Part shown: positions 41,513 through 42,881 of the stretch, piece by piece | Numbering within the stretch: position 1 is the first letter of the stretch | How the letters are laid out: each line of letters starts with the position of its first letter | Assembly: GCF_030362795.1 (NCBI RefSeq) | Contig: NZ_JAUCBM010000001.1 | Span: 62,001 to 126,000 of the forward strand | DNA: 64,000 bases | Direction: 5' to 3' | Source of the DNA: Pseudochrobactrum kiredjianiae | Lineage (GTDB): Bacteria; Pseudomonadota; Alphaproteobacteria; Rhizobiales; Rhizobiaceae | The notes under the pieces: model-generated | Seen by the model: only the letters and a program-made list of their open reading frames with translations | What the model was told of the DNA's origin: nothing | Databases searched by the model: none | Translations under genes and position numbers: made by a program

Positions 41513-42169
41513 TTATTTAGTGCGCACCGGTTTGCCTGCGCCATAGATAGATGGTGCAAACAGTGCCAGAATCGCCCCGTAAGGCACCAGCATCACCACA
41601 CTCATCAGAACCTTGACACCAAAGTCACCAAGCGCCAGTGACAGCCACAGTGGCATTGTCAGGCCAAACCATTGCACCTGATCAATCATGGAACTGTCAG
41701 CAAAGCCAAAAACCGTGTCCAGCATGGCGAAGGGGGCAGCAAAAGCCAGCGAGAAGAACAGGATTGTATCCAGAACCGATCCGCAAAGTGCTGCGGCTAG
41801 AGGTGCTTTCCACCAGCGCAAACGGCGCAAACGGCTGAACACGCTGATATCAAGCAATTGCGCGAACAGAAACGCACTTCCCGACGCCACAGCAAGCCGT
41901 GGGCTCGCAAGCCAGATCGACATGATCACACCCAGAGCAAAACCGGCATAAACGACCTGACGGGCGCGTTGCGGACCAAAGCGGCGGTTGGTCAGATCAT
42001 TGACCAGAAAGGCAAACGGATAGGTAAAGGCGCCATAAGTGAGAATTTCCTGCAAACCCAGATAATGCACCGGATATTGAACAAGAATATTGGAAGCGGC
42101 AACGGCCGCACACATGGCAAGAACGGGAAAAATCAACGCTTTTAAAGCGGAACTATGCTGTAATGGCAT
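41513..42169 (-). CDS. yhhQ: Queuosine precursor transporter (YhhQ, DUF165/VUT family)
   Basis: A 218-residue inner-membrane protein with about six spans. AASNILVQYPV, YPFAFLVNDLTNRRFGP and the second-half GDFGVKVLMSVVMLVPYG are the COG1738 signature. Members import queuosine precursors such as preQ0/preQ1 for tRNA modification. The ATG at 42169 forms part of a candidate preQ1-I aptamer. The only transcription source visible is read-through from rpmB, whose terminator ends four bases before that aptamer. Confidence 0.9.
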   Translation of the reverse strand: MPLQHSSALKALIFPVLAMCAAVAASNILVQYPVHYLGLQEILTYGAFTYPFAFLVNDLTNRRFGPQRARQVVYAGFALGVIMSIWLASPRLAVASGSAFLFAQLLDISVFSRLRRLRWWKAPLAAALCGSVLDTILFFSLAFAAPFAMLDTVFGFADSSMIDQVQWFGLTMPLWLSLALGDFGVKVLMSVVMLVPYGAILALFAPSIYGAGKPVRTK

Positions 42170-42195
42170 TTTTTTATCCTGGGTAATGGAACCAG
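42167..42195 (-). promoter_or_regulatory. Candidate preQ1-I riboswitch of yhhQ
   Basis: On the minus strand: CTGG-TTCCATTAC-CCAG-GATAAAAAA-ATG. CTGG/CCAG forms P1, GGTTC and ACCC sit at the conserved aptamer positions, and an A-rich tail follows. CAT in the loop can pair with the AUG start codon to form the pseudoknot, so ligand binding would hide the start. The gene it precedes encodes a queuosine-precursor transporter, the expected target. Confidence 0.72.
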
Positions 42196-42198
42196 CAA

Positions 42199-42221
42199 AA
42201 AGGCCGGATAAACCGGCCTTT
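42199..42221 (-). terminator. Intrinsic terminator of rpmB
   Basis: AAAGGCCGG-TTTAT-CCGGCCTTT followed by TTGC on the minus strand. It lies 28 bases after the rpmB stop and directly before the yhhQ aptamer. Confidence 0.85.
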
Positions 42222-42249
42222 AGCAAACGAAAATTAGCCGAAAAGACTA

Positions 42250-42543
42250 TTAAGCAGCAACTTCTGCCAGCTTCTTAGCAACCTGACGCTTCAGCAGACG
42301 TGCGCGCTGTGACAGCTCGTTGTCCGATGATTTAGCAAGGAATGCATCCAGGCCACCGCGATGCTCTACCGAGCGAAGCGCATGGGCTGTAATACGCAGA
42401 CGGTAGCTCTGGCCCATTGCATCGGACATCAGAGTTACATTGCAAAGATTTGGCAAATAACGGCGACGCGACTTGTTGTTCGCATGGCTTACATTGTTGC
42501 CGTAGAGGACCGCTTTACCGGTCAGTTCACAAGCGCGGGACAT
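42250..42543 (-). CDS. rpmB: 50S ribosomal protein L28
   Basis: A 97-residue protein: [33 protein letters not shown] and [20 protein letters not shown] are the L28 landmarks, with the longer C-terminal tail usual in alphaproteobacteria. The start at 42543 is preferred to an ORF start five codons earlier. Own promoter upstream and terminator downstream. Confidence 0.98.
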
Positions 42544-42881
42544 TGGTCTCACCTTCAAAATTCTGTTTCAGGCCCCGGCACAAATACCCGATACCGTCTT
42601 CGCTTCAAGCATAATCAATATAAAATTGATATGTCGCGGCGCGCAATATCGGACAGCGGCCCATTGGGAAAGTCGGGTTTCTATAGTGAAAGCAGCTGTT
42701 GTCGTCAAGCCGTTTCAGAGGATTACAGGTCCAATTCCTGCCAATGACAAGGAATTGACTGTCTTTGACCCCATTTTGCCGCTTTTATCATAGAAATAGC
42801 GGGCATTAAAAGAGCCAGTACTGCAGTTTCAGGCTGGCAGACAGTGAAATACCCGCTCAGGTGAGTCTCAGGGAGATACGA
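42544..42881. other. Divergent intergenic region between rpmB and the DUF3108 gene
   Basis: 338 bases without a gene. It holds the rpmB promoter (42680-42708), leaving about 130 bases of rpmB leader. A possible plus-strand TTGACC with a weak -10 near 42765-42794 may serve the DUF3108 gene. Nothing else is recognised. Confidence 0.6.
42680..42708 (-). promoter_or_regulatory. Promoter of rpmB
   Basis: TTGACG, a 17-base spacer and TATAGA on the minus strand: near-consensus sigma-70 elements with ideal spacing, about 135 bases upstream of the rpmB start. Confidence 0.75.

Follow-up and report, generated by a model that had tools for sequence, protein, structure and literature searches.

The leader of yhhQ in Pseudochrobactrum kiredjianiae very probably contains a translational riboswitch of the preQ1 type, closest to class I type III, that represses the gene by capturing its start codon. 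The case is built by sequence comparison, from the conservation of the motif, the likeness of its loop to that of E. coli type III, a compensated difference between CCU/AGG and CAU/AUG, a rule for the first base of codon 2, and the reading frame.

A candidate start-codon pseudoknot upstream of yhhQ

The window, the whole 64,000-nt stretch of DNA that was analysed, carries CTGG-TTCCATTAC-CCAG-GATAAAAAA-ATG at 42195-42167 on the minus strand, and its ATG is the start codon of yhhQ, as the first-pass annotation had described. Read from the sequence, the 5' strand of helix P1 is CTGG (42195-42192), followed by a 9-nt loop, TTCCATTAC (42191-42183), the P1 3' strand CCAG (42182-42179) and the linker GAT (42178-42176). 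A tract of six A residues (42175-42170), the putative loop L3, then leads to the ATG (42169-42167). The anti-start triplet CAT at 42186..42188 would form the 5' strand of the pseudoknot helix P2 and the ATG its 3' strand; in E. coli the triplet is CCT and its partner AGG. A putative Shine-Dalgarno (SD) sequence, AGGA (42177..42180), stands 7 nt 5' of the ATG with half its length within P1. The preQ1-I-like layout with CAU and AUG as the pseudoknot, as first proposed, is thus supported by sequence comparison, and its assignment to preQ1-I can be refined in two respects: type III is the nearest relative, and the ribosome-binding site AGGA probably lies half inside P1.

Both neighbouring genes, on the same strand, are identified by TIGR models with which Pfam agrees. 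The yhhQ gene (42169-41513) encodes a queuosine precursor transporter (COG1738; Vut_1) that scores 86.4 bits against TIGR00697 (cut-off 50.95) and 112.4 bits against NF008406, under the cut-off of 252 for that model. Upstream lies rpmB (42543-42250), encoding ribosomal protein L28 (TIGR00009, 80.6 bits).

By itself P1 is worth -2.1 kcal/mol, and the lowest-energy fold of the window string under a pseudoknot-blind model is another structure at -4.1 kcal/mol; for the E. coli string, too, such a fold does not give the solved P1 register. The heptamer CCATTAC occurs twice in the window on the minus strand, within the loop (42189-42183) and directly 3' of the ATG (42166-42160), and the GCCA of the second stretch is used by the pseudoknot-blind fold. 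This second copy is common to locus L008 and absent in L006 and L007.

From the comparison with E. coli set out below we infer the ligand, the sign of regulation and the atomic contacts of the switch. When ligand is present, the CTGG/CCAG hairpin would be locked, and the CAU of the loop would pair with the yhhQ AUG as P2. If the E. coli structure (PMC10622847, in the part accessible to us) is a guide, U42191, C42183 and A42170 would hold preQ1, the last of these, the A preceding the AUG, reading the ligand as the putative counterpart of E. coli A27. P2 would stack above the ligand through A42169-U42186, U42168-A42187 and G42167-C42188, while half of AGGA is held in P1. With the AUG and half of AGGA hidden, initiation would be blocked and yhhQ expression lowered. 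When ligand is absent, P1 would be weak and the start codon free; locking P1 would take both ligand and P2, because P1 by itself is less stable than the other fold.

Conservation and distribution of the motif

To place the motif among relatives, we used YhhQ homology to choose 112 loci: 7 of the same genus (the window included), 25 of the same family and 80 further family regions. These 80 come from part of the places found in a family search that itself returned only part of its matches, so the set leans towards closer relatives. The strict motif stands upstream of yhhQ in 103 of the 112 loci, the window included. In the other nine it is absent (L063, L073, L097, L115, L123, L132), degenerate (L082, L105) or interrupted by one inserted base (L141). 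None of 29 yhhQ loci from other families of the order has it. The pairings CAT/ATG and CTGG/CCAG, whose persistence in close relatives the first-pass annotation had taken as decisive, are kept in 7 of 7 same-genus loci and in those 103 family loci.

Two pattern-chosen sets, 24 of 25 loci from a search with the TGC-loop pattern and 118 of 119 from named genomes, bring the motif loci to 245, which represent 220 distinct contexts; L155 and L225 were dropped because their contigs end too soon. A YhhQ match follows the motif in 140 of the 142 pattern-chosen loci, and in the remaining two (L243 and L274) the contig ends after 90 and 88 nt. Pattern-chosen loci are by construction incapable of showing variation in P1. 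In the homology-chosen motif loci P1 is CTGG/CCAG in 102 of 103, with CCGG/CCGG in one (L057). CAT accompanies ATG in 245 of 245 motif loci, a figure to be read with the fact that the scan demanded a loop triplet complementary to the start codon. The CAU/AUG pairs are invariant within the group as well as required by the scan, and accordingly offer no internal covariation. A narrow pattern, with P1, linker length and the A tract fixed, was run on 394 genomes of the family and turned up neither a CAC/GTG nor a CAA/TTG version.

Across the 29 positions from P1 to the ATG the mean information is 1.85 bits in 101 aligned homology-chosen motif loci, against 0.17 bits in the 30 nt upstream and 0.25 bits in the 30 nt past the ATG. 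In 218 distinct contexts from all sources the values are 1.82, 0.16 and 0.28 bits, respectively, some of the 29 positions being fixed by the motif scan itself. By these measures of sequence conservation the motif is far from chance.

Named loci with the motif belong to Rhizobiaceae-like alphaproteobacteria. At the level of the class the pattern occurs in 3 of 337 genomes, the window's own included, a count that says little about the order because the 337 contain so few genomes of the same order: two with "same order" family codes outside the family f1, one further genome and, from f1 itself, no other. By eye, P1 was not seen in L291 and L292. Three loci of another family of the order (f44: L012, L017 and L018) have a hairpin just 5' of yhhQ, preceding a AGGAGGGTGACA stretch. 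It reads TGGGCTATTCTCCCA in L012 and L017 and TGGGCTATCTTCCCA in L018, and may be another regulatory leader. As a candidate relative of the present motif it was set aside: its loop pairing, judged by eye, is inconsistent among the three loci, and it has no Rfam match at the gathering score.

Relationship to E. coli type III and other preQ1 switches

The yhhQ leader of E. coli K-12 reads TTGGG-TTCCCTCAC-CCCAA...AAAAAGG, followed by a spacer and then the ATG; the form of the present group to be compared with it is TTCCATYAC...AAAAAAATG. Between the window loop TTCCATTAC and the E. coli loop TTCCCTCAC two positions differ. One is a C/T difference at the seventh position, which varies among relatives too. 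The other changes CCU to CAU in the pseudoknot strand and is matched by a change of AGG to AUG in the tail, and counts as one compensated difference between two groups, not as repeated events. In the E. coli crystal structure the P2 pairs are U11-A28, C10-G29 and C9-G30, with C8 in a triple (PMC10622847). By analogy, these pairs would map onto the U-A, A-U and C-G of CAU/AUG, and the first U and last C of the loop would correspond to bases that contact preQ1 in that structure. Of 30 loci taken from a search of the phylum with E. coli YhhQ, 27 have the E. coli-type form, with the start codon further 3', and L310, L311 and L323 do not. Among the 27, the loops of L303 and L307 deviate slightly, and the linker can be as long as 46 nt.

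With class I type III as described for E. coli yhhQ (PMC10622847, accessible part), the window motif shares a 9-nt pyrimidine-rich loop with UU at its 5' end and AC at its 3' end, an A-rich tail, the H-type pseudoknot layout and the gene itself. The UU that follows the P1 5' strand is TT in the window and occurs in the TTC loops of 104 of the 220 contexts, whereas the TGG (89) and TGC (27) loops of relatives lack it. The AC that precedes the P1 3' strand is present in the window; its A stands at 0.85 across 218 contexts, and its C, the last of the loop, was demanded by the scan. The window likewise has the short pyrimidine-rich loop and A-rich tail (TTCCATTAC and A6), and yhhQ lies downstream according to TIGR00697 and the frame test. 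The difference is in P2, which in E. coli joins a CCU of the loop to the AGG of the Shine-Dalgarno sequence, but here would join CAU to the start codon AUG. The pairing of the type III loop with AAGG of the Shine-Dalgarno sequence is therefore not seen in the window, where the partner is AUG and the putative Shine-Dalgarno sequence, AGGA, lies upstream, half in P1. Furthermore, P1 has 4 bp and the linker 3 nt, and the host is an alphaproteobacterium, as are those of the named loci, whereas type III has been reported almost solely from gammaproteobacteria in the accessible part of that source. We file the motif near class I type III, as a variant working like it and not as a plain member, because loop, tail and gene agree with the type while the Shine-Dalgarno pairing and the gammaproteobacterial range do not. 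Among the literature matches listed, a body that excludes McCown 2014 (the cited source of type III), there is no alphaproteobacterial or start-codon version.

Other preQ1 switches are more distant. Class I types I and II (RF00522) have in common with the motif the P1 hairpin, the C before the P1 3' strand, an A-rich L3 and the H-type layout, but their loops are longer, they act by partial or indirect Shine-Dalgarno occlusion or by transcription control (PMC11625349, accessible part), and RF00522 gives the window motif no score. Members of preQ1 classes II and III are reported upstream of queuosine-precursor transporter genes as well, but they are larger HLout pseudoknots of another size and layout (PMC11625349).

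In the window no Rfam family scores as high as its gathering threshold. RF00522 (PreQ1, gathering score 39) is absent from the five Rfam matches with E up to 10 in 42050-42300, and the four weak matches that it has genome-wide lie elsewhere than the motif site. The covariance-model search that had been proposed as a check on the preQ1 assignment was thus negative, but it also misses a validated member: the E. coli type III yhhQ leader, for which a preQ1-bound structure has been solved, has no RF00522 match with E up to 10 over 201 nt. Because of this, lack of an Rfam match is uninformative as a refutation, and we rejected it as an argument against a riboswitch. L310 is the only one of 20 scanned loci in which RF00522 passes its cut-off (52.5 bits, at L310:2683-2727 on the minus strand); the yhhQ leader of this locus lacks the type III form.

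Ligand and queuosine metabolism

The function of yhhQ matches a preQ1-type ligand. QueA and TGT matches are present in the window genome and two genomes of the same genus (G000, G001, G002), and QueF and QueC have no match at 1e-5 in any of the three. As QueA and TGT are found there and QueF and QueC are not, these organisms probably depend on imported preQ1, in which case YhhQ would govern how much ligand reaches its own switch. Salvage of preQ1 is probable for these three genomes, and in the window genome YhhQ would be the likely main source of that ligand.

The same pseudoknot might sense another compound of the queuosine pathway, preQ0 or queuine, in place of preQ1. YhhQ also transports preQ0 (PMC5372724), and a Bartonella YhhQ transports queuine (PMC11570991), as the accessible parts of these sources report. 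We consider such a ligand improbable: the motif retains the loop bases with which the E. coli switch reads preQ1, that switch prefers preQ1 over preQ0 about 133-fold (PMC10622847), and the window genome, with QueA and TGT and no QueF, fits the use of preQ1.

We also surveyed Que genes more widely, in 23 genomes for QueF and QueC and in 19 for QueA and TGT, for a correlation of motif loss with Que gene loss, and left the result unused because the correlation is not clean. The motif and QueA are both missing in G377, G319 and G244, and G161 combines a degenerate motif with no QueA; G263, with a degenerate motif, has QueA, and G246, G372 and G313 keep QueA without the motif. In G298, G287 and G193 the motif is kept with no QueF or QueC match. 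TGT of G287 appears as two overlapping pieces (G287:C1:1665398-1666347), possibly a broken gene or a sequencing error.

A link between the loop and codon 2

The base following the ATG, at +4, depends on the type of loop. It is C in 89 of 89 distinct contexts with TGG loops and G in 27 of 27 with TGC loops, and among the 104 with TTC loops it is A in 60, C in 24, T in 20 and never G. The homology-chosen set alone gives the same picture (TGG with C in 34/34, TGC with G in 4/4, TTC with G in 0/65). At the level of sequence, this rule agrees with TG loops forming a fourth P2 pair (G-C or C-G) and UU loops avoiding it; the corresponding base in E. coli, C8, is part of a triple. G is likewise missing after AGG in the 27 leaders of E. 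coli type (T 19, C 6, A 2).

Shared ancestry could produce such an association. The loop base shares 0.59 bits with position +4 and 0.62 bits with the upstream base at -2, a strong lineage signal, and because mutual information between loop and +4 is confounded in this way we set it aside as evidence and counted changes within loop classes instead. These were counted on a quick YhhQ tree of 120 rows, obtained from 154 long-match rows by removing same-loop rows more than 93% alike. This tree requires 10 or more changes of loop state; if only well-supported branches are counted, the minimum is 2 for TTC, 3 for TGG and 3 for TGC. Position +4 is constant within TGG rows (0 changes, against 9-19 at positions +5 to +11) and within TGC rows (0 against 3-11); among TTC rows it changes 16 times, never to G. 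On well-supported branches the TGC rule has 3 independent pairs, 3 for and 0 against (sign test, p 0.25), rising to seven independent pairs on all branches, and the TGG rule has 3 pairs, on average 2.6 for, 0 against and 0.4 undecided.

That the conserved hairpin and start region are a translation signal independent of ligand, or a site for protein binding, is a reading to which P1, nearly invariant, the conservation of the 29-nt block as sequence, and the nature of the Shine-Dalgarno sequence and AUG as ordinary parts of initiation would all be congenial. We hold it to be quite unlikely, as it leaves unexplained the likeness of the loop to that of a validated aptamer, the loop-dependent rule at +4, and the occurrence of the transporter downstream of nearly every pattern-chosen locus.

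Possibly interchangeable expression platforms

A linker with G as its first base, which lets CCAGG keep AGG just 5' of the A tract, occurs in 208 contexts, and the ATG shares the YhhQ frame in 208 of 208. The other linkers (CCT, CCC, CTG) lack the upstream AGG and occur in 12 contexts, all with TGC loops, among them L274, whose frame is not determinable. The ATG of the motif is out of frame in 10 of these 12, and in 10 of the 10 a start codon of the YhhQ frame (ATG or GTG) lies 13-16 nt past the captured A. L111 and L152 have a nearer in-frame ATG as well, and in L153 the motif ATG is in frame and a GTG follows 15 nt on. The captured codon reads ATGGA in all 12 contexts, at Shine-Dalgarno distance from the downstream start, and the captured strand may here be a Shine-Dalgarno sequence again. 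ATGGA was rejected as a sufficient mark of that platform: 7 of 15 TGC contexts with G linkers carry it too, so that by itself it is no proof of Shine-Dalgarno use. On the YhhQ tree the non-G linkers fall at three places: the Aureimonas clade, L161 and L170. In L149 and L229 the captured ATG opens five-codon frames (MDPKT and MDQSP) whose stop overlaps the yhhQ start, and upstream frames with translational coupling are a possible alternative for these two loci.

On balance we favour the view that one aptamer is served here by interchangeable expression platforms. The pseudoknot of the Rhizobiaceae-like group would capture the start codon and would extend, where the loop is of the TG kind, to the first base of codon 2; RNA structure would thereby constrain the second amino acid of the protein. 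Where the upstream Shine-Dalgarno sequence has been lost, at three places on the YhhQ tree, the captured AUGGA may serve as the Shine-Dalgarno sequence of the start 13-16 nt downstream.

The putative rpmB terminator

In the window the motif is preceded by a terminator-like hairpin, AAAGGCCGG-TTTAT-CCGGCCTTT with a T-run, at 42197..42221 on the minus strand, in the interval between rpmB and the motif. It was recognised by eye and folds at -14.4 kcal/mol. The T-run ends at 42197, which leaves a gap of 1 nt to P1 instead of the four bases first reported. The placement of a terminator-like hairpin right against the motif, to which the first-pass annotation had drawn attention, is real in the window and is not general in the group: with terminator-like defined as a fold of -7 kcal/mol or lower followed by four or more T residues, such a hairpin lies within 60 nt of P1 in 87 of 220 distinct contexts and ends within 4 nt of it in 30. 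The tight placement is a local feature. The gene order is more general, with rpmB within 700 nt upstream in 229 of the 242 loci that have at least 150 nt there. A generic promoter and terminator scan of 42150-42750, using an E. coli-type consensus, reported no promoter and did not report the window hairpin. Read-through of the rpmB terminator as the main control of yhhQ, with the conserved hairpin as a by-product, would suit the closeness of the T-run to P1 and the empty promoter scan, but it is very improbable given a motif that stays constant while the abutting terminator does not, and a scan whose consensus is of the E. coli type.

Implications

The expression platforms of preQ1 switches in the review PMC11625349 comprise kinds of Shine-Dalgarno occlusion, domain docking, and transcription termination or pausing. 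Start-codon capture is not named in the accessible part of this review, and a word-start search of that text gives neither "start codon" nor "AUG". The review calls for riboswitches in mRNAs that lack a Shine-Dalgarno sequence; the present switch keeps one yet would act on the AUG, and is thus a neighbouring case. What would be new is a known kind of preQ1 switch that, in rhizobia and their relatives, includes the gene's own start codon in the ligand-bound knot. The sister lineages would provide a natural series on how an expression platform changes between capture of the Shine-Dalgarno sequence and capture of the AUG. If our reading is correct, rhizobia widely carry a natural switch in which the start codon closes the binding pocket, and RF00522 does not detect it.
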